Source: a virus. From it: 20,481 nucleotides of DNA. The stretch's first letter is position 1. Each line of letters starts with the position of its first letter. Of the stretch, positions 3-10,549 are shown one piece after another. The notes below the pieces were generated by a model, which had not been told where the DNA came from, made no database searches, and saw only the letters and a program-made list of their open reading frames with translations. The stretch lies in IMG/VR virus record IMGVR_UViG_3300042475_004839, positions 1-20,481 of that record, one strand, 5' to 3'. A program made the translations under genes and the position numbers.

Positions 3-911
3 GGCCAGCGGGCGGTCCACAAGTCGGTTGGCGAGGCGGTCGATCATTACTTGAAAGTCGCGCAGATTGACACGAAGCAGACCAATGTCAATCGCCTCCT
101 GCGCATGCTGCGGCTGGTGCTCGAGGAGGACAACGAGCAGGTGCGCGCCCACCCGCTGACCGTAGTCTCGCCGGACACCGCGGCCAAATACCGCACGACC
201 TACCAAGGCAGCGCCTACACGATGCGCTCGGTGCTCTCCGGGGCGCGCAGCGTCTTCTGCAATCCCATGGACTGGCGCGGCTTCCCGCTGCCGGACTGCA
301 TCAAAGAGTTTGCCGCCATGACCAAGGGCATGAAGGCGCCGGTCGCGACCTTCGTCCGCATCCCGCCCGAGACGCTGGAAGGGATGGAGGCCAGCAGCAA
401 GGCCATCGGCGGGGCCACGCGGCGGGCGTTCCTACTGACCCGCTACCTGGGCATGACGCCCAAGGAGGTCGCCTACTGCCGCAGGGGCTGGATCGAAGAC
501 CGCGGCGACCGGCATGTGATGGTGCTCGTCGAGCGGGAGAGTGAGGGGCTGAAGCTCAAGACCGGCGCCAAGCGCGGGCGGGTCATGTCGGTGCCGCCGT
601 GGATGGTGCCAGAGCTGCTGGCCGCGGAGGACTTCATGGTGCCGGGGCGCACCAAGGGCATGCGGGTGAAATTCATGGAGCGCAACTTCAATATGTGGGT
701 GCGCGAGTTCCTGCCAGACCGGAGGGCGGCGGCCTACGAGTTGCGCAAGCAGGCGGGCAGCGACGTGCTCAATGAGACCGGCCGGATCAGCTTGGTGCAG
801 CACATGCTTGGCCATAAGGAACCGTCCACCACGGCCCGCTTCTACGCCGTCTTCGACCGCGAGGTGGATCTCCGGGATGTCTGGCAAAAAGAAAGGGCCA
901 GCCGTAGCTGA
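3..911 (+). CDS. int: Tyrosine recombinase (phage integrase), 5' end outside window
   Basis: Site-specific tyrosine recombinase, probably the integrase that inserts or excises the phage. The frame is open to the left edge (it reads GQRAVHKSVGEAVDHYLKVA before the first possible TTG start at 51), so the N-terminus is missing. An N-terminal core-binding-like helical part (VNRLLRMLRLVLEE, then AYTMRSVLSGARSVF) precedes the catalytic domain. The C-terminal boxes are clear: YELRKQAGS at about 735-761 with the second catalytic Arg, MLGHKEPSTT with the conserved His at 813-815, and FYA with the Tyr nucleophile at 843-845. A lysine in LKLKTGAKRGR fits the beta-hairpin Lys. Odd: where the family has G-L-R (first catalytic Arg) this protein reads G-M-T (450-458), and the His of the HxLR box is Tyr. 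It is the only gene on the plus strand and converges on the late operon. The family call is firm; the activity is not. Confidence 0.85.
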   Translation, partial: GQRAVHKSVGEAVDHYLKVAQIDTKQTNVNRLLRMLRLVLEEDNEQVRAHPLTVVSPDTAAKYRTTYQGSAYTMRSVLSGARSVFCNPMDWRGFPLPDCIKEFAAMTKGMKAPVATFVRIPPETLEGMEASSKAIGGATRRAFLLTRYLGMTPKEVAYCRRGWIEDRGDRHVMVLVERESEGLKLKTGAKRGRVMSVPPWMVPELLAAEDFMVPGRTKGMRVKFMERNFNMWVREFLPDRRAAAYELRKQAGSDVLNETGRISLVQHMLGHKEPSTTARFYAVFDREVDLRDVWQKERASRS

Positions 912-914
912 CCC
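886..914 (-). terminator. Rho-independent terminator of the leftward operon, inside the integrase 3' end
   Basis: An 8-bp stem (895-902 with 907-914) with a CGTA loop lies at the convergent junction. On the minus strand the stem is fully paired with one G-T wobble and is followed by TTTCTTTTT (894 down to 886), the classic layout for ending the long leftward transcript. On the plus strand the same stem has one C-A mismatch and is followed by a weaker T-rich stretch, so it may also act for the integrase. It overlaps the last integrase codons and its stop codon. An outer inverted repeat (TCTGGCA 880-886 with TGCCAGA 933-939) encloses it. Confidence 0.72.
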
Positions 915-943
915 TTAGTCTCTTTCTGGACGTGCCAGATGAG

Positions 944-3900
944 CTATTTCTTCGGCTTGCGAAGGCTGATGTCCCGCAGCCTGTTGAGCAGCGCCTCGTA
1001 GCCTTCGCGCGTGTAGCTTGCGCCCTCACCAGCCGTGGCTGGTTTGTTTTCGCTATCAAAGACTAAGCCGCGCATCGGCTCATCCGAGTGCAGCCAGTCG
1101 AAGAACTCCTTCACCGGAATGCGCTGGCGATACATGGAGTTGCGCGTGTCAACGAAGCCAACGAGTGCGTTCCTGTCCTCGTTGATGTCCATATCGGCGT
1201 AGGCGTTGGCCAGCACCGCACCGAGGTCGTCGCCGGCCTCATTGATAAATTGCTCCATGGGAACGTAGCGGCGGGGCGCACTAAGCATCCCATCACCCCT
1301 ACCAGAAACCGGAGCATCCGGCATCGCCTGCCCACGCGGGGCGGCTTTCGGCTTCTGCAGCTTAATCCCATCAAAGACAAACAAGTCCTCACCCATCTGG
1401 GTCGCGTGGTATCCCTCTGACTTGAGTAGCGCTGTCCATTTCTTGGTTGGGAACATGAAGAGGTCTGCCGGCTCCTCGCCAGCCAGCACGTCATTGTTCA
1501 GCGCTGCAGCCTCATCCGGGTGCTTGCGGGCAAAGCGCTTGGCAAGTTGCATGGCCTCGCTGTCCTCAATGCTCAAAACCTTCAGACCTCTTGGGACTCC
1601 AACGGCAGACACATCACCATACTGCCCAGCCGCCTCGGCGCTTGTGCTCACAAATGTGCCCGGGAAGTCTCCAGCTCCGCTCGGTCCTCCGCGGTAGGCG
1701 ATGATGTGCTTGGTCTCGTCTATGCCGCTTGTATCCGGCATCGCCTGCCCACGCCTCTGCAGCGCCCGCTGCAACTGCGGATCTTCCGACCGCACGCCGC
1801 GGCGCTCCAGCTCGGCGCTGATCGCCTCGTTGCGCCGGAGCAGCTCGCGGGTCTGCGCGGCGCCGCCACGCACCGGACGGCCCTCACGCATGCCCAGAGT
1901 GGACAGCCCGAGGTAGCCTTGGTTCTCCTCGTATTGGCGTTGGAGTTGGTCGGTGGGAACGGACTCGAGGGAGTCTGGCATGGCTTGGGCGCGCGGGGCG
2001 GCTGATGGGGTGGCTTGCGGCCGTGACGCAATCAACGCCTCGTAGATGTCTGTCTGTCCGGGCTTTGTCTTGATGCGGGCGATGGGAATGTTGCCCTCGT
2101 CCAGCCAAGGGTTGAGATTGCCGGGGCGGTATTTCAGTTTGCTTGAGACAAATAGGTAGGCATTGTCTCCGGCCATTTTGCCGCCAGCCCATGTGTGGTT
2201 GCGGCCCCAAGCGCCAACGCTGTCCACCATGCCAGACTGCAATCCGCGCTCCATGATCTGCTGCGCGCGCGCGTCCGATCCCGGCCGAATGTCTTGGTGG
2301 ACTGAAAGGTGAGGAGCAATCTCGTTAAACTCTTCTCGCGTCCACTCGTAGGGGCTTTTCTCGCCAATCCCAACCATCCGCGCGATTTCCTTGGTAGTGC
2401 CGGTTGCTGGCAGCCCAAGGTCTTTTGCTCGTTGCTGAAGCGACTTGCGATCCGGCATCCCATCAGACCTACCAGAAGCCGGAGCATCCGGCATCCCCTG
2501 AGCCTCCCGCGGGATCTGCTGGGGCATGCTTTCCTGTGGCAGGTCAATGTCCACGTCTGGCCGCGGCGGCTGGTCGGGCATGAAGTTGCCGTTGGCCCAA
2601 TTGTAGTCCATGGCGGCGCCCTTGCGACCGGTGCCGCTCACGGCGTTGATGCCCTCAAGGATTAGCGTCTTGATGGCGCTGCCCTTGCCCATGCTGCCGG
2701 CGAGCGGGTTCTTGCCACGGTTGAGTGTGGTGCCGGGGTTGATTAGCGCGTTGACGATGTTCTTGCGGTCGGGGCCAATGGTCGCCTCGCCAGCCTTGCC
2801 GGCGCGCTTGTCTGCCATCCATTGGTTCACGTCGTCCATGATGGCCTGCAAGCTGTAGCCGGGGCCGCCATTGGCCGGATCAAGCGCGGGGTTGCGCTCG
2901 CCGATGGCGCGCATGGCGCGGTTGCGCATGGCGGTGAGGTCGAGGAACTGGGCCAGCAGGTCGCCGGCGGCATTGGTTGTCCACTGGTCGAAAACCATCT
3001 CGCGGTTGATAGCGTCCACGTCCTTGAGCTTGGCGGTCTTCACTTTGTCTGCCGAATTGCCGACCGCAAAATAGCGCACCTGCACTGACTCGCCGGAGTC
3101 GGCCATGCCCTCGAGCATATTGATGATCGGCAGCCACGGCTTCCAGTGGTTCTGCAGAATAATGCTCTGTGGCAATCGGCGGCCGCCAGCGCGCACCCGG
3201 CCATCACCCCAGCGCTTGAGGCCAAAGGCTGCGTCTCCCGGCGCCAACAGGTTGCGGCCCGCCATGTTCTTGACTTGGGAGTTGCGCGCCTTGCGCTCGT
3301 CGCGGCGTTGCTTGGGTTGCTTCTCAACAACACGGCCGTCCGGTCCCAGCACGCCAAAGGTGTTTTCCCGCGGCGCGGTCGGGTCGTCCGGGTTGATGCT
3401 GTAGAAATCTACGTTGGGATTGTTGGCCAAACTCTGCACGTTGCCGTCACGCGCCACCTTCACACCGCTCGGCACCTCTTGCGACGGGTCGTTGAGCCAT
3501 GCGTTGTAGGTCTTGATGTAGGCGCGCAGGTTGCGGTTGACGATGGGGTCGTCGGCCGCCACAGGGTTTTCCTTGAAAAGCTGGTCGGGCGTGATGGCCT
3601 TGCCGGTCTCTGGGTCAATGCGCACGCCAGACAGCCCGAGTGCGCGGGCATTGGCACCGAGTATGTTCTCGACGAACGTCACGGGGTTGGCGCCCGCGGG
3701 CACGCCGCGACGCAGCCGAGCATAGTCGGTGCCGGCCATCCGCCACTCCTCCACCATGATCTCGCGCCGCGCCCAGTCCGCTGGGTCTTGTCCGCCGCGG
3801 CCCAGCTCGTCCTGCGCCAGCTCGTCCATTTTGGCACGGATCTGATCGTCACTAACAACCAAGTTTTCGTTGGGGAAGTTGCGCGCGTTTTCCGACTTAA

Positions 3901-6151
3901 TCATCTGCTCGGCATATTCGCGGGCGCGGGCCATCACGCCCTCGGGGCCGTAGCGGGCATCGACCTCGGCGCGCATCGCCGCCTTTTGTTCCGACGAAAA
4001 GGCATCGCTGGAGAAGAACGCCTCACCAAATTCATGTGCGTCCACATCAGCGCGGCGGGCATCGAGGTTGACGAATAGACGCGGGCGGGCGCCGTCCGAG
4101 TTGTGCAAATAGAATCCCGCCGCACCACTCTGACCATGCGCCTTGGCGTTAAGCGCGAAGTCCGCATCGTTGAGGGGCACATAATCCACGTTGCGAAATA
4201 GCCCCTGCATGGCCGCCGTGCGGGCGATCTCGTCGAAGCTGCGCGCTTGGAACATGTGCGCAATATCGCCGCCCGCCAGCTCCACATCGGTAAGGAATCG
4301 GTTTAGCTCGCGGTCAAACCACTGGTTACGCTTCACCGCACCTTGCCGCTGCAGTTCGGGAACGGTGGCCTGGATGTCCACCAGCATACGGCCGATGTCG
4401 CTTTCGGCTCTGGCGACAGTGCGATTGCGGGCACCCAAGACCCGGCTGGCCGCGCCACCGGCCCCGCCGAGCGCAGTCCCTGCGCCATAAATCAGATTAG
4501 CGCCCTCTTCGTCGCCGCCGCCACGGGTCAGCTCGGCAAACGGCGCAGAGACGATGGCGCCCTTGGTCGCGCCGGTGGCCACCGCGGAGGCACCGCGAAC
4601 GCCCTGCACTACATAAAAGTTGGACAACCGCTCCATCATCTTGCGCGTCTTGGGCGACAGTGTCTCGTTGCGTGCCAGTCTGGCTGGCGTTGACTCCATT
4701 GCCATGAACTGGCTGGGTTTGGCTACCCGCTCGCGGATGCCAGCGGGGATCTTGGGGTTCTTGGCAATCGCCTGCCGCGCCATAATGTCGGCACCGTTAA
4801 GCGGGTCAGCCGCCTCGCGCAACATGACCGCCGCCTGCGGGAACTTGTCGCCGACCCAACGCAGCGTGCCAGCGCCCCCCTTGTGGATGACGTAAGCCGC
4901 CGCTGCCACGTTCATGGCATTCTTGAGCGGCTCAGGCAGGCTGCTGTAATTCATGCCGGCCAAGCCGCCGGCGTAAAGCGCCACGCGCCCCTTGCTCCAC
5001 ACGGCATTCTGGAATCGCTGCACCTCGCGCAGAGACTGCTCGGTTGGGCGGGCCATCTTCTGCGCGCCCTTGCCAATAGCATCCAAGATGCGCGCACCGC
5101 CGCCCTTGGCCGCGGTCGAAACACCAAGCCGCGTCAGCCCAGCACCAAAAGATGTCCAGACTAGCGGGTCGGCCCCCATTTGCATAACCATGGCCTGCGA
5201 CTCCGCAGGCATCTTTTTACCCCAGACCTGATCCATGTAGTTGGAGCCGGTCAGCCAGTCAAGCGGGGCGGCACCGGCAGTCATTAGCGAGGACGTTGCA
5301 ACTTCTGGACCAGCGCCCTCGGTGCGCTTTTGCTCTATCGACTTGAGCCGCCCGCGGAAGCGCAGGTGCTGCTGGTATTCAAATTCTTCGACATCCTCCG
5401 GCGTCACCGGCTCCAGCGTCATGCCTTGGGCGGCGTATTGCTTAATCAGCGCGTCATCGCTCGAATCTCCAGCCAGCCCGCCGGTCTGCGCGACCTTGGT
5501 GCGATACATGGCGCGGTCCATCTCGGTGATGAACTCGCCAGTTTCCTTGATCTTGTAGCGCGGCCCGCCAAGTCCGGCCAAGCCGTCGTTCATTATGCCA
5601 TATCCTTGCTGAAGCAACTCGCCAGCGTAATTGAGCGTAGCGGGCGAGCGGTTGATGGCGTCAGAAACCGCTGCGGGCCACATCGCCGGATTGTAACGAG
5701 AAATATATTCCAGCCCGTCCTTGGCCGGAATGACATCGCCGTCCTCGTTTCGAGGATCGTAACGCAGCGGCGACGTTACGCCGTCCGCAATAGTCACCAC
5801 CAGCCCGCCAACGCCCTTGGCTGTGGCCATGAAATCGCTGTCCAACAGACCCTGCTCTTGCAGCGTCTTCTTGAGCTGGGTGCGGCGGCGCCACTCGTCC
5901 TTGGGCAGGTCTGGCGCATTCGGGTCGTTAAGCTCCAAGACCTGCTGCACCAGCACCTGCTCGGCGGGAATCTCAGCTTGGGCCTCTGCCGCCTGCATGG
6001 TGACGACCTCTTCGGGCGTATACTCCGGTCCGTCCGAGAACATAGCCTTGCCCATGGGCGTGGCCAGCAACGTGGAGAGGCGAGTTGTTTCCTCGTCACG
6101 CTTCATCGCCACGACTTCCTCGGGCGACAGCTCTTGTCCGGGTTGTAGCAT
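944..6151 (-). CDS. Giant multidomain phage protein (putative ejection / polyvalent protein), 1735 aa
   Basis: Last and largest gene of the late operon, following three internal virion-like proteins, so it is probably packaged in the virion and injected into the host. The N-terminal ~1190 residues look like an ejection protein: long helical stretches with Ala/Gly-rich, weakly hydrophobic parts near residues 400-430 and 525-575. At residues ~704-712 there is VDAHEFGEAFF, like a zinc-peptidase helix but with Glu where HExxH has the second His (H706). After residue 1190 come modules separated by a repeated Q-A/G-M-P-D linker (Met at 1220, 1391, 1471, 1610; an FMPD at 1191). They are a SAP-like helix pair (about 1233-1260, KDLGLPATGTTKEIARMVG), an unassigned beta-rich part to ~1385, a helical part (1392-1470), an ADP-ribosyltransferase-like part (1475-1605: IIAYRGG, FVSTS, AGQYG, later EDLFVFDG), and an unknown C-terminal domain (1623-1735). 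Multidomain phage proteins carrying peptidase and ADP-ribosyltransferase domains are known as polyvalent proteins. Assigning this one to that class is an inference; single domain calls are by eye. Confidence 0.72.
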   Translation of the reverse strand: MLQPGQELSPEEVVAMKRDEETTRLSTLLATPMGKAMFSDGPEYTPEEVVTMQAAEAQAEIPAEQVLVQQVLELNDPNAPDLPKDEWRRRTQLKKTLQEQGLLDSDFMATAKGVGGLVVTIADGVTSPLRYDPRNEDGDVIPAKDGLEYISRYNPAMWPAAVSDAINRSPATLNYAGELLQQGYGIMNDGLAGLGGPRYKIKETGEFITEMDRAMYRTKVAQTGGLAGDSSDDALIKQYAAQGMTLEPVTPEDVEEFEYQQHLRFRGRLKSIEQKRTEGAGPEVATSSLMTAGAAPLDWLTGSNYMDQVWGKKMPAESQAMVMQMGADPLVWTSFGAGLTRLGVSTAAKGGGARILDAIGKGAQKMARPTEQSLREVQRFQNAVWSKGRVALYAGGLAGMNYSSLPEPLKNAMNVAAAAYVIHKGGAGTLRWVGDKFPQAAVMLREAADPLNGADIMARQAIAKNPKIPAGIRERVAKPSQFMAMESTPARLARNETLSPKTRKMMERLSNFYVVQGVRGASAVATGATKGAIVSAPFAELTRGGGDEEGANLIYGAGTALGGAGGAASRVLGARNRTVARAESDIGRMLVDIQATVPELQRQGAVKRNQWFDRELNRFLTDVELAGGDIAHMFQARSFDEIARTAAMQGLFRNVDYVPLNDADFALNAKAHGQSGAAGFYLHNSDGARPRLFVNLDARRADVDAHEFGEAFFSSDAFSSEQKAAMRAEVDARYGPEGVMARAREYAEQMIKSENARNFPNENLVVSDDQIRAKMDELAQDELGRGGQDPADWARREIMVEEWRMAGTDYARLRRGVPAGANPVTFVENILGANARALGLSGVRIDPETGKAITPDQLFKENPVAADDPIVNRNLRAYIKTYNAWLNDPSQEVPSGVKVARDGNVQSLANNPNVDFYSINPDDPTAPRENTFGVLGPDGRVVEKQPKQRRDERKARNSQVKNMAGRNLLAPGDAAFGLKRWGDGRVRAGGRRLPQSIILQNHWKPWLPIINMLEGMADSGESVQVRYFAVGNSADKVKTAKLKDVDAINREMVFDQWTTNAAGDLLAQFLDLTAMRNRAMRAIGERNPALDPANGGPGYSLQAIMDDVNQWMADKRAGKAGEATIGPDRKNIVNALINPGTTLNRGKNPLAGSMGKGSAIKTLILEGINAVSGTGRKGAAMDYNWANGNFMPDQPPRPDVDIDLPQESMPQQIPREAQGMPDAPASGRSDGMPDRKSLQQRAKDLGLPATGTTKEIARMVGIGEKSPYEWTREEFNEIAPHLSVHQDIRPGSDARAQQIMERGLQSGMVDSVGAWGRNHTWAGGKMAGDNAYLFVSSKLKYRPGNLNPWLDEGNIPIARIKTKPGQTDIYEALIASRPQATPSAAPRAQAMPDSLESVPTDQLQRQYEENQGYLGLSTLGMREGRPVRGGAAQTRELLRRNEAISAELERRGVRSEDPQLQRALQRRGQAMPDTSGIDETKHIIAYRGGPSGAGDFPGTFVSTSAEAAGQYGDVSAVGVPRGLKVLSIEDSEAMQLAKRFARKHPDEAAALNNDVLAGEEPADLFMFPTKKWTALLKSEGYHATQMGEDLFVFDGIKLQKPKAAPRGQAMPDAPVSGRGDGMLSAPRRYVPMEQFINEAGDDLGAVLANAYADMDINEDRNALVGFVDTRNSMYRQRIPVKEFFDWLHSDEPMRGLVFDSENKPATAGEGASYTREGYEALLNRLRDISLRKPKK

Positions 6152-6153
6152 TA

Positions 6154-7185
6154 TTACTGCTGGTTGACTGGGCCGATGACCTTGTAGGTCACGCGGCCGT
6201 CAGGATGAACAACGCGCTGCGCGCGGTTGCCACCAATCACAGTTTCTTCGCCTAGCGAGGCGATGGCCGCCTTGATTGGATCAGTCATCGCCGCTTGCCT
6301 CGCTGGAGTCATTACCGGGGTCGGCGCGGGAGATGCGGAGGGGGCCGGCGATCCGGTCGGCGATGGCGTGCGAGACGGGTCGGCCGCCGGCATAGGCGAG
6401 CGGCTCTGCACAATTTCCTCTACCGGCCGTCCAGTCATGCGCGACTCCAGGCGATCCAAAAAGTTCTCAATGTCGTTTTCTGCTTGGGTAAAATCTTCCA
6501 TCGGTAGCTTGGTCGAAAGGCGGCTCACCGACTGCTGGGCCTTTTGACCTTCCACGTCCGTCACGGGTCCGGCGCCCTTCAGTTCGGGGAAGACGACTCG
6601 AAACACGCCACCCTCGATCTGTTTGAGCAAGCCCTCAAAGCCAGCCGCCGCGGTGCCAGCCTGCGCCTCGTTGGCAAGGCCAAACATATATTCTGGCCGA
6701 CCAACCTTGTAGCCGATGGCTGCGGGGCGCCCCTTGTGGTTGCGCAATTGATTGAGTGCGTCTCGCATGATGTAAATATTGTCCAGCGAGCGCTTCTTTT
6801 CTTCTTCCGGTTTTTTTTGAAAGTCCGCCAGCTTTAGTTGCAGCTCTTCCTGTTGCATCTTGCGCATGGGGTCGTTCGCCGCCGCCGCCGCTTGGCGCTC
6901 GGCCTTCATTGATTGCGACATGTCTTCAGCCGCTTGTGCTGGCGTTGTGCTTATGCCCAGCATGTGGTATTTTTCCCACTCATCCTTTATGGCGTCTGGC
7001 CAGCTCTCGTTGTAGGGCTGCCTTAGAAAATCAAGATTGGCCTGCCTGCCTGTTGGGGCAATGGCCATGTTGGCAAAATCTTGTGGCGTTGGCTCTCGAA
7101 CGCCCTCCGGTTCTGGGGCGATGTCCAGCGTAGCCAAAGAATTACGAATGCTGGTTTCGTTGGGGTCGTAGGTTGGGGCGCTCAT
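6154..7185 (-). CDS. Putative internal virion protein, 343 aa
   Basis: The start is taken at the ATG at 7183-7185 (MSAPTYDPNE), which overlaps the upstream stop as TAATG. A longer reading from 7254 would run 70 bases into the previous gene and is unlikely. The protein has a charged, probably coiled-coil section at residues 83-148 (EDMSQSMKAERQ through EEELQLKLADFQKK-type sequence). A central motif, FPELKGAGPVTDVEGQKA at about 199-216, resembles the LKGxGxVT/ITxxE motif seen in many phage structural proteins. A Pro/Ser/Thr-rich linker (263-296, SPTGSPAPSASPAP) then leads to a small C-terminal part with DGRVTYKVIGP. It stands between another internal virion-like gene and the giant protein, only 2 bases before the latter, so the two are probably translated together. 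The role as a minor virion or ejection protein is inferred from position and the motif. Confidence 0.6.
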   Translation of the reverse strand: MSAPTYDPNETSIRNSLATLDIAPEPEGVREPTPQDFANMAIAPTGRQANLDFLRQPYNESWPDAIKDEWEKYHMLGISTTPAQAAEDMSQSMKAERQAAAAANDPMRKMQQEELQLKLADFQKKPEEEKKRSLDNIYIMRDALNQLRNHKGRPAAIGYKVGRPEYMFGLANEAQAGTAAAGFEGLLKQIEGGVFRVVFPELKGAGPVTDVEGQKAQQSVSRLSTKLPMEDFTQAENDIENFLDRLESRMTGRPVEEIVQSRSPMPAADPSRTPSPTGSPAPSASPAPTPVMTPARQAAMTDPIKAAIASLGEETVIGGNRAQRVVHPDGRVTYKVIGPVNQQ

Positions 7186-7832
7186 TAGATACCAGGAGGA
7201 TAAGGAAGCGGCTTGAGTCCATTGGCTGCGCGGCGGCGGTTGGCCGCGTCCCATGAGGCGCGTCCTCCGGGAATGGCCGGCGCTGGTGTTGCTGCGGGAG
7301 TTGGTGCGCCGGCGAGAGCGGGAAGCGGCGTGTCCACGGATGGCGCAGGCCCGCCTGTCGGCAGCGGAGGCTCAACCGGAGCCATGCCAGCCGGCGGCGT
7401 GTAGGTCGCATTGCCGCCTGCGATATTCCCGGCATTCTTTAGCCCCGCATTCACAAACGGCTGCTGCTGCTGCACGCCAAGTTTATTACCAACCAACTGC
7501 GCGTTGATCATCGACGGCATCAGCGGCGAGATGGTTTCGCTCACATTGTACCAATCCATGTCATTCTTGAGCTTGCCGCCAGAGACCGCTTCAAGCTGAT
7601 CCATGGAGATGCCCATCGATGGCGAGACGACCTTGAAGACATCCTTGAAGGCGCGGCCCTTGGCCTTGCGTCCTTCGATTTCACCATACATCTGCCCGAT
7701 GCCGGCCAGCGCCCCGCCAATATCCTGGCCGAGCTGTCCCATGGACTGGGCGTTGGTTTGCGCGGCGCCCATCATGCCTTGGGCGATGATGCGTCCGCTT
7801 TGATCTGAATCTTGGGGTGCGTATCCAAACAT
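7185..7832 (-). CDS. Putative internal virion protein, 215 aa
   Basis: The ATG at 7830-7832 is preceded by GAAGGAGAAC, a good Shine-Dalgarno sequence about 8 bases upstream, which supports the start. The N-terminus is rich in Gly, Ala, Met and Gln (IIAQGMMGAAQTNAQSMGQ), then QLGQDIGGALAGIGQMYGEIEG, a weakly hydrophobic amphipathic helix typical of phage ejection proteins. The middle (residues ~60-125) is ordinary globular sequence. The C-terminal third is a Pro/Ala-rich linker (PPLPTGGPAPSVDTPLPALAG and onward) ending in a basic patch, NRRRAANGLKPLPYPPGI. It sits between the PAPS reductase-family gene and the 343-residue protein, with which it shares TAATG. No enzyme motif is visible. The function is inferred from composition and context. 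Confidence 0.55.
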   Translation of the reverse strand: MFGYAPQDSDQSGRIIAQGMMGAAQTNAQSMGQLGQDIGGALAGIGQMYGEIEGRKAKGRAFKDVFKVVSPSMGISMDQLEAVSGGKLKNDMDWYNVSETISPLMPSMINAQLVGNKLGVQQQQPFVNAGLKNAGNIAGGNATYTPPAGMAPVEPPLPTGGPAPSVDTPLPALAGAPTPAATPAPAIPGGRASWDAANRRRAANGLKPLPYPPGI

Positions 7833-7856: not shown

Positions 7857-8666
7857 TTAAGCTGCTTCCGCCCGCAGGTAGCTGGGGCGTTCTTTTTGTG
7901 ACCATCTGAGCTGATCACTCACATTGCTCACCAGTTGGCCAAGCCGTGGGCACAGCACCTCGGCGGGTCCGTCCTTGGCCATGCACGCCGTGCAGGCGGT
8001 CACATAGTCAGGGTTGTCGGTCTTGTCGTCCCGCTCCTGCCATGACTCGCCGACCTTCTCGTAGCGTCCATGGTGGATGGGCAAATTGTTCTCCTCGATG
8101 TAGCGCCACACGTCCTCATCGGTGAAGAGGCGGATGGGGAAGACGAGGCTGGCGCTGTCCAGATTGCGCGCCACATCGGTGCGGATCGTGATGTCGCCGT
8201 AGACCGCATCCGTATCGCTCGCCTTGTGGCCATGGAACATCGCATCCCACGGCCAGTTGAACGTGCCGGTCGGCCGCTGGTAGATGTCCGCAAGTCCGCA
8301 GACAAAGTCCTCGCCGTCCTTCGGGGCGCGGATGCCGGTCGGCAGCATATTGTAGCGGGCGCCGATCTGGTAGTATCCGGCGATCTCCACCTCGCCCCCG
8401 CCGTCCTGCACCATCGTGGCCGAGGGCGGGAAATCGTAGACGCGCAGTCCGTAGTGCTGGATCACCGCATCGGCGAACCGATACTTGTGCGGCTGCCAAG
8501 GCTCGCGGTGGAAGACAACCGGCAAGTCATCCCGGTGACGCCGCACCAAGTCCAGCACCACCATGCTATCCTTGCCGAAAGAGCAAGCGATGCACGGATT
8601 GCCAAACTCAACGAGCGACTGCTCAATGAGCCGGTGGGCGTAAGAGACTTTGTCTTCGTAGGTCAT
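7857..8666 (-). CDS. PAPS reductase-family (PP-loop ATPase) enzyme, 269 aa
   Basis: Member of the phosphoadenosine phosphosulfate reductase / adenine nucleotide alpha-hydrolase family. The PP-loop is plain at residues 28-36 (CSFGKDSMV; K32, D33, S34), and the family's C-terminal signature FTDEDVWRYIEENNLPI occurs at 181-197. Cysteines at 25, 28, 123, 225, 228 and 239, including C-TAC-TAC spacing at 225-228, could bind a metal or Fe-S cluster; the short Cys tail motif of true CysH-type assimilatory enzymes is not obvious. The start overlaps the upstream stop as TAATG. Phage relatives are commonly annotated as PAPS reductases but most have no proven substrate; sulfur transfer to DNA or RNA (DndC or tRNA-type reactions) is possible. 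It is the only metabolic-type gene here and lies inside the internal virion protein cluster, like a cargo gene. Family call firm, reaction unknown. Confidence 0.85.
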   Translation of the reverse strand: MTYEDKVSYAHRLIEQSLVEFGNPCIACSFGKDSMVVLDLVRRHRDDLPVVFHREPWQPHKYRFADAVIQHYGLRVYDFPPSATMVQDGGGEVEIAGYYQIGARYNMLPTGIRAPKDGEDFVCGLADIYQRPTGTFNWPWDAMFHGHKASDTDAVYGDITIRTDVARNLDSASLVFPIRLFTDEDVWRYIEENNLPIHHGRYEKVGESWQERDDKTDNPDYVTACTACMAKDGPAEVLCPRLGQLVSNVSDQLRWSQKERPSYLRAEAA

Positions 8667-9886: not shown

Positions 9887-10549
9887 TTAGAACTTGATGC
9901 AATAGAGCATGGCAATGTTCTTCGGGCGGGTTTCGGTGCCGCCGGTTGCCGCTAAAAAGTCCCTGCCATAATCGGCATTGTCGCCCCCAACAGCAATCGA
10001 GTTAGTGGTCACTCCAGTTCTTCCGTAAAGGTAGGTAAGCGCAGCGCCGTGCGTATGGCTTTTTAGTTCATCCGCCTGCTTCGCTCCAAACGTCCCAGAC
10101 GCAGTGCCGTCGCTATTGGTTCCGCTGCCGCGCACAAAGATGCCGCGCAGGTCTGGCAAGGCGAAAGTCGTGCTGCCGTCGCCCACACCGTAGGTCGTGC
10201 CGATAGCGGCAAAGAGCGCGGCGTAGGTGCTGCGGCTTACTGCGGTGCCGTCTGCTGCCAGCCAGCCAGCGGGGGCGCTGTTCATGGCGAAGGCTTGGAC
10301 GGCACCAGCCGGAACAAGCGACTGCTGCACAGCGGTGACGAGCTTGGCCAAAGTTACGTTGCCGTCCAGAATGTTTGCCGTGGCAACGGTTATGGCTGTC
10401 GGAAGGGCGCCTGTGGCCAGTTTGCTTAGTCCAATCGCCGCATCGCTCTTGATGTCGGCGTTGACGATCTCGCTGACTGTGCGGGCGTTGTTTAGCTTGG
10501 TCGGGGTGACGGTGTCGCCGCTAGTGAATGTGTATGCGTAGGAGGCCAT
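9887..10549 (-). CDS. Tail fibre protein with phage tail-collar domain, 220 aa
   Basis: A typical phage tail-collar domain occupies residues ~80-141: VPAGAVQAFAMNSAPAGWL, then a Y-A-x-L-F-A-x-I-G-T-x-Y-G stretch, and TFALPDLRGIFVRG. The C-terminus ETRPKNIAMLYCIKF (206-220) is also characteristic of these fibre tips. The N-terminal ~75 residues are a low-complexity repeat-like fibre segment (IKSDAAIGLSKLATGALP, GNVTLAKLVTA). It is probably a distal fibre or spike protein for host recognition. No Shine-Dalgarno: the start is preceded by four 7-base repeats (10556-10583) ending 6 bases before the ATG. It follows the nozzle-like protein. Confidence 0.88.
   Translation of the reverse strand: MASYAYTFTSGDTVTPTKLNNARTVSEIVNADIKSDAAIGLSKLATGALPTAITVATANILDGNVTLAKLVTAVQQSLVPAGAVQAFAMNSAPAGWLAADGTAVSRSTYAALFAAIGTTYGVGDGSTTFALPDLRGIFVRGSGTNSDGTASGTFGAKQADELKSHTHGAALTYLYGRTGVTTNSIAVGGDNADYGRDFLAATGGTETRPKNIAMLYCIKF

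Follow-up and report, generated by a model that had tools for sequence, protein, structure and literature searches.

The question raised by this locus is why unrelated segments of one very large phage protein are separated by copies of a single short motif. The window, i.e., the whole stretch of 20,481 nucleotides (nt) analysed here (IMG/VR virus record IMGVR_UViG_3300042475_004839, positions 1 to 20,481), is an environmental temperate-phage contig and encodes on its minus strand a giant protein of 1735 amino acids (aa) with the repeated motif Q[AG]MPD in its C-terminal part. A sequence-only reading of the window had placed these repeats at domain borders and had proposed that they are either recombination seams for swapping toxin-type modules or protease sites releasing single effectors. 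The comparison with relatives presented here favors the first of these: with a probability of roughly 0.8, the protein is a phage polyvalent protein in which exchangeable cassettes, arrayed in frame, make up the C-terminal third and are swapped via the DNA shared at the seams.

Motif copies and segments of the giant protein

The gene is divided as follows:

944..6151, minus strand: giant protein gene, 1735 aa (open reading frame with 82 distinct relatives)
2582..6151, minus strand: core, residues 1-1190, common to the family by comparison with relatives
2573..2581, minus strand: MPD codons of the FMPD ending the core, Met 1191
2486..2500, minus strand: motif 1, QGMPD, residues 1218-1222
2459..2494, minus strand: first-position linker MPDAPASGRSDG, residues 1220-1231, first copy of a 15-residue unit
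1982..2458, minus strand: module M19, residues 1232-1390, with a weakly SAP-like start
1973..1987, minus strand: motif 2, QAMPD, residues 1389-1393
1742..1981, minus strand: module M2, residues 1391-1470, 80 aa
1733..1747, minus strand: motif 3, QAMPD, residues 1469-1473
1325..1741, minus strand: module M34, residues 1471-1609, ART-like by eye only, without a family match
1316..1330, minus strand: motif 4, QAMPD, residues 1608-1612
947..1324, minus strand: module M5, residues 1610-1735, last in the window, holding the second copy of the 15-residue unit

The motif is real and lies where it had been placed, with four copies of Q[AG]MPD, whereas 20,000 shuffles gave 0.0025 copies on average and never more than 1. 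One further copy, GMPD at residue 1232, had been overlooked. The methionines of the MPD sequences (residues 1191, 1220, 1232, 1391, 1471 and 1610) correspond to ATG codons at nt 2581, 2494, 2458, 1981, 1741 and 1324. The two 15-residue copies are alike in their DNA as well, as had been noticed before, forming a 46-nt repeat (1285-1330 vs 2455-2500) that is 91% identical. This unit is the linker of the first position, and related starts of the form MPD[AV]xxSGRxxGM open the first post-core module in the relatives L019, L061, L039 and L031. The array of the window, M19-M2-M34-M5, has no large terminal module. M5 is the first post-core module in L019 and L061 and the last one in the window with the linker retained, which fits the expectation for a moved cassette. 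A structure prediction of the window's tail (AlphaFold) places the motifs in coil, at a mean predicted local distance difference test score (pLDDT) of 41 that is too poor to use.

Probable exchange of modules between distant cores

IMG/VR was searched by protein, by degenerate motif DNA and by core alignment, the hits were dereplicated, and the open reading frames (ORFs) were split at the motif. This resulted in 82 distinct giant ORFs with a core of ~1,180-1,290 aa in all but a few, followed by arrays of 1-5 modules per protein from ~55 module families. Of these ORFs, 60 are complete at the 3' end and show 46 architectures, usually with small inner modules (80-320 aa) preceding one large terminal module (420-700 aa). 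The 80-aa module M2 is present in 23 proteins next to 14 different right-hand neighbours, and relatives with an identical core type carry differing modules joined at the motif. The alignment of homologues, which the sequence-only reading had suggested as a check, thus shows the same motif connecting differing domains, and the borders marked by the motif in the window are the ones that delimit exchangeable modules in homologues. RGQAMPD was also met in seven small ORFs of unrelated contigs, which were taken to match by chance and excluded.

Moreover, the exchange appears to be recent. Cores with only 24-30% identity carry shared modules whose protein sequences are 95-100% identical and whose DNA identity reaches 100%; by a later pairwise global alignment, which counts differently, the same core pairs are ~32-38% identical and the contrast is unchanged. 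Module M8, as an example, is identical in DNA over 527 aa between L018 and L067, and L003, with a core 59% identical to that of the window, has an M19 that is 94% identical to the window's. Pairs with a common module and a different neighbour were compared for the position of the break. At the right edge, DNA identity stops 5-26 nt beyond the A of the next ATG (median 10; 102 distinct comparisons), and at the left edge it stops 0-28 nt upstream of the module's own ATG (median 6; 50 comparisons), placing the break at the motif itself. The idea of recombination seams is therefore strongly supported by these sequence comparisons. The modules are under purifying selection, with ratios of non-synonymous to synonymous substitution rates of 0.04-0.24, showing that they are functional protein domains.

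Conservation of the seam as DNA

Next to the position of the breaks, the DNA of the seams itself is conserved, synonymous positions included. Across unrelated modules in the main clade, the Asp codon of the seam is GAT in 38/43 cases (background 0.33, p=6e-14) and the Gly codon is GGG in 13/15 cases (background 0.13, p=2e-10). The search pattern admitted all synonymous codons (for Arg, CGN only), so this codon bias is no search artefact. The array is furthermore enclosed by two anchors:

2486..2530, minus strand: left anchor, last 45 nt through ATGCCGGAT, near-identical DNA in distant cores
891..943, minus strand: right anchor, a hairpin and intrinsic terminator directly after the stop codon

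The 42 nt at the core end are 97% identical in 155 core pairs averaging 28% aa identity, compared to 34% for the preceding 99 nt. The right anchor immediately follows the last module's stop codon regardless of which module is last. Its hairpin TCYGGCACGYCCRGA, found in the window and in 53 loci, has a stem whose two sides change together (TCTGG...CCAGA and TCCGG...CCGGA). Neither anchor had a match in Rfam.

These data bear on an explanation in which recombination occurs anywhere and selection retains only those junctions that fall into flexible linkers, with the seam DNA being passive. Selection for folded domains alone would also place breaks at linkers, and mosaicism in phages often lacks identifiable boundary sequences (PMC3029335). 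A passive seam, however, predicts neither the identity in uncommon codons nor the near-identical 42-nt left anchor nor a right anchor that stays the same whichever module comes last, making this explanation improbable.

The ATG of the motif might serve as an internal translation start producing the array or single modules separately. The ATG is invariant in the main clade, and in many cores GGGAGG is located 8 nt ahead of it at the first motif (energy -10.3). Over all motif ATGs, the median energy of pairing with the anti-Shine-Dalgarno sequence is -2.8 compared to -2.9 at other internal ATGs, the fractions with strong pairing are similar (0.16 vs 0.14), and in another clade Leu (CTG or TTG) replaces Met. 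Internal starts were rejected as a general explanation on the basis of these energies and the Leu clade, and are considered very improbable.

Proposed mechanism of cassette exchange and points opposing it

In the preferred reading, each cassette extends from the ATG CCG GAT of QxMPD to the next motif, or to the stop codon and the fixed hairpin-terminator. The repeated coding DNA would provide short homology, i.e., ~20 nt per internal seam, ~42 nt at the core end and ~50 nt after the stop, and recombination between co-infecting phages or prophages might then swap, insert or delete whole domains while keeping the frame intact. The shared seam DNA itself would drive this exchange. The protein is probably carried in the virion and injected into the host, where its modules might act early as anti-host or anti-defence effectors.

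Several observations weigh against this reading. In the clade L120-L129 some of the same modules are present and the core ends in an ALPRDA-type linker instead of QAMPD. Within this clade, the junction between M3 and M14 in L129 is DPPGLEQMGGPTDQQT and lacks the motif, whereas L034 has DPPGLERGGAQRGQAMPDAAGQQT at this place, so junctions can lose the motif. Exchange is deduced here by comparing sequences and not from observed recombination events, and the recombinases RecT and Erf were not found in 20 near-genome-size records (35-42 kb), which may encode unrecognised families. Packaging and injection are suggested by two indications, namely a neighbouring gene related to phrog_2534 and the resemblance to the polyvalent family. 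Two scans of genomes for a host returned no relative, and no isolate was found either.

Finally, all relatives are metagenomic contigs in which the modules are natural repeats, and assemblers can misjoin at repeats, so the mosaic might be an assembly artefact. The reading frames are open throughout, near-identical modules are present on every core type in full-length records, and the same architectures were recovered from independent samples (e.g., L017/L051, L047/L069 and L064/L065), which argues otherwise and renders an artefact extremely improbable.

Constraint on the peptide and the protease question

In divergent clades, the peptide [GA]-[QS]-[AFG]-[ML]-P-[DE] is kept while the codons differ (GGC CAA GCC ATG CCG GAT; GGA CAG GCG CTG CCT GAC), the substitutions in distant clades being Met/Leu, Asp/Glu and Gln/Ser. 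This suggests some constraint on the peptide too, and judged from sequence the seam appears to be conserved both as DNA and as peptide.

The retained peptide would be expected if QxMPD were primarily a proteolytic processing site, at which a metallopeptidase in the core or another protease frees single effectors and for which the DNA conservation is secondary. Autoprocessing by zincin-like domains was proposed for polyvalent proteins (PMC5512222), and HEXXH is present in 17/20 diverse core representatives. The predicted core of L012 (pLDDT 75) has a topology that fits a zincin, with three strands, the HEXXH helix and a later helix bearing a Glu. In the window's clade the counterpart is HEFGE or HEYFE, in the window itself at this position:

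4022..4036, minus strand: HEFGE, residues 706-710, degenerate counterpart of the HEXXH of relatives

For relatives, cleavage by this domain is thus a possibility, but for the window it is doubtful, and the motif persists despite the degenerate site in this clade and the lack of HEXXH in L075. Foldseek returned nothing at E<0.001 for the core domain, and prohead proteases of the families S78 and S49 were not found in the 20 near-genome-size records, where unrecognised families are possible. The motif-free junction in L129 and the clade with the other linker are also difficult to reconcile with a processing site, and the choice of a protease alone does not account for the conservation of synonymous codons across unrelated modules. 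The release of effectors by proteolysis, as envisaged by the sequence-only reading, was accordingly not shown, and processing as the primary role of the motif is rather doubtful.

Module functions and small partner genes

The modules of the window have no significant family match. The SAP-like assignment given earlier reaches only E=0.11, below the Pfam cut-off, and the segment called ART-like (M34) matches no family, although sister modules in the same kind of position match ART-PolyVal with 4e-11 and 1e-10. ART-PolyVal modules are present in L031 and L033, with weaker matches in L090 and L077, a C5 cytosine methylase module in L085 and DUF7178 modules in L034 and L050. The label toxin-type is thus plausible for some modules only (ART-PolyVal, C5 methylase). 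The array might constitute a reloadable set of early effectors, for which injection and targets are deduced indirectly. LPD38 was found in a related array on another core, located in L048:538-7542(-), a different giant protein whose core is unrelated by the clustering used and which has LPD38 near its C terminus and RGQAMPD in nearly the same codons.

Four terminal modules, M8, M9, M20 and M14 (in L050), are followed by an ORF of 61-79 aa that starts in an ATGA overlap with the module's stop codon:

L067:714-923, minus strand: small overlapping ORF
L102:12277-12513, plus strand: small overlapping ORF
L007:3752-3934, plus strand: small overlapping ORF
L050:424-618, minus strand: small overlapping ORF

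Main-clade members have the right anchor exactly after the stop codon of this small ORF. The small ORF is specific for its module and accompanies it in other clades as well; family searches with the small ORFs gave no match. As a guess, these could be cognate inhibitor or immunity genes. One may extend this to a dual role of the seam, being an exchange site in DNA that reloads an injected multi-effector payload and, as peptide, a cut or hinge freeing the effectors, some terminal ones with a small cognate inhibitor gene. This extension is unlikely; if true, dual seam and inhibitor genes would be the phage counterpart of modular toxin-immunity arrays.

Relation to known systems

The giant protein resembles the phage polyvalent proteins (Iyer et al. 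2017, PMC5512222) in being large and multidomain, in combining disparate domains (ART-PolyVal, LPD38 and C5 methylase in relatives) and in its location near virion genes. The zincin-like HEXXH is a further likeness in most cores; with HEFGE in the window, this feature is common and neither universal nor required. Polyvalent proteins were described as accreting domains, with cassettes in the vicinity of a kinase locus, and the word 'linker' is absent from that paper (PMC5512222). In the family described here, by contrast, one short repeated coding sequence parts the domains, and near-identical cassettes are found on very different cores.

The polymorphic toxins CdiA and Rhs likewise combine a constant front with C-terminal modules that vary and are attached at a conserved motif (PMC3150448). 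There, exchange occurs at the short conserved coding sequence VENN, with homology abruptly starting and stopping at this site (PMC3150448). The small module-specific genes downstream of some end modules are a similarity as well, an immunity role for them being a guess. Unlike in CdiA/Rhs, several modules are arranged in series in one reading frame of a phage gene. Orphan cassettes, a CdiA/Rhs feature, were not found: 315/317 module matches are located in giant or cut ORFs and the other two are distant (28-30%) homologues in other phages. Also unlike CdiA/Rhs, no family match to two-partner, type VI secretion system or Rhs delivery machinery was obtained in the core or the genes of the window.

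The conserved boundary sequences discussed for mosaic phages (PMC3029335) are short stretches of DNA where modules meet, and they could likewise steer homologous recombination. These are normally located between genes, whereas the seams described here are inside one gene, repeated and in frame. Recent exchange of fragments between diverse phages is also known from domain shuffling in phage proteins (PMC10684548), in which paper a text search finds no polyvalent proteins, ejection proteins or linkers. The origin of mosaic junctions in phages has been a question for a long time, and in most cases no boundary sequences are found. Repeated in-frame seams within a gene, together with recent exchange between proteins 24-30% identical elsewhere, make seam-guided recombination directly testable. 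Moreover, the cassettes provide a ready list of phage effector domains, ~55 in number and mostly unknown, of which four come with a small partner gene.

Gene neighbourhood

The virion genes of the window are all on one strand. They include a probable portal of 702 aa and, on the same strand, a long tail-region protein, an amidase and a cluster of small genes. The giant gene adjoins the gene related to phrog_2534, followed on its other side by a convergent integrase:

6154..7254, minus strand: gene upstream of the giant gene, with similarity (E=5e-13) to phrog_2534, described as 'released from the phage upon host infection'
3..911, plus strand: convergent tyrosine integrase, its 3' end overlapping the right anchor

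The same layout is present in the 39-kb genome of a relative, together with genes for scaffolding, major head, tail, terminase and DnaB. Among known phages, tblastn with the whole window protein or the tail of L031 gave no match. In the relative L169, a gene matching the phage 'kinase' family phrog_18508 (L169:12574-13698(+)) is located between the giant gene and the integrase. A PAPS-reductase-like gene (window 7857-8666, minus strand) lies amid the virion genes, directly upstream of the ejection-type genes, and the product of 9887-10549 (minus strand) resembles, by eye, a phage tail-collar domain.
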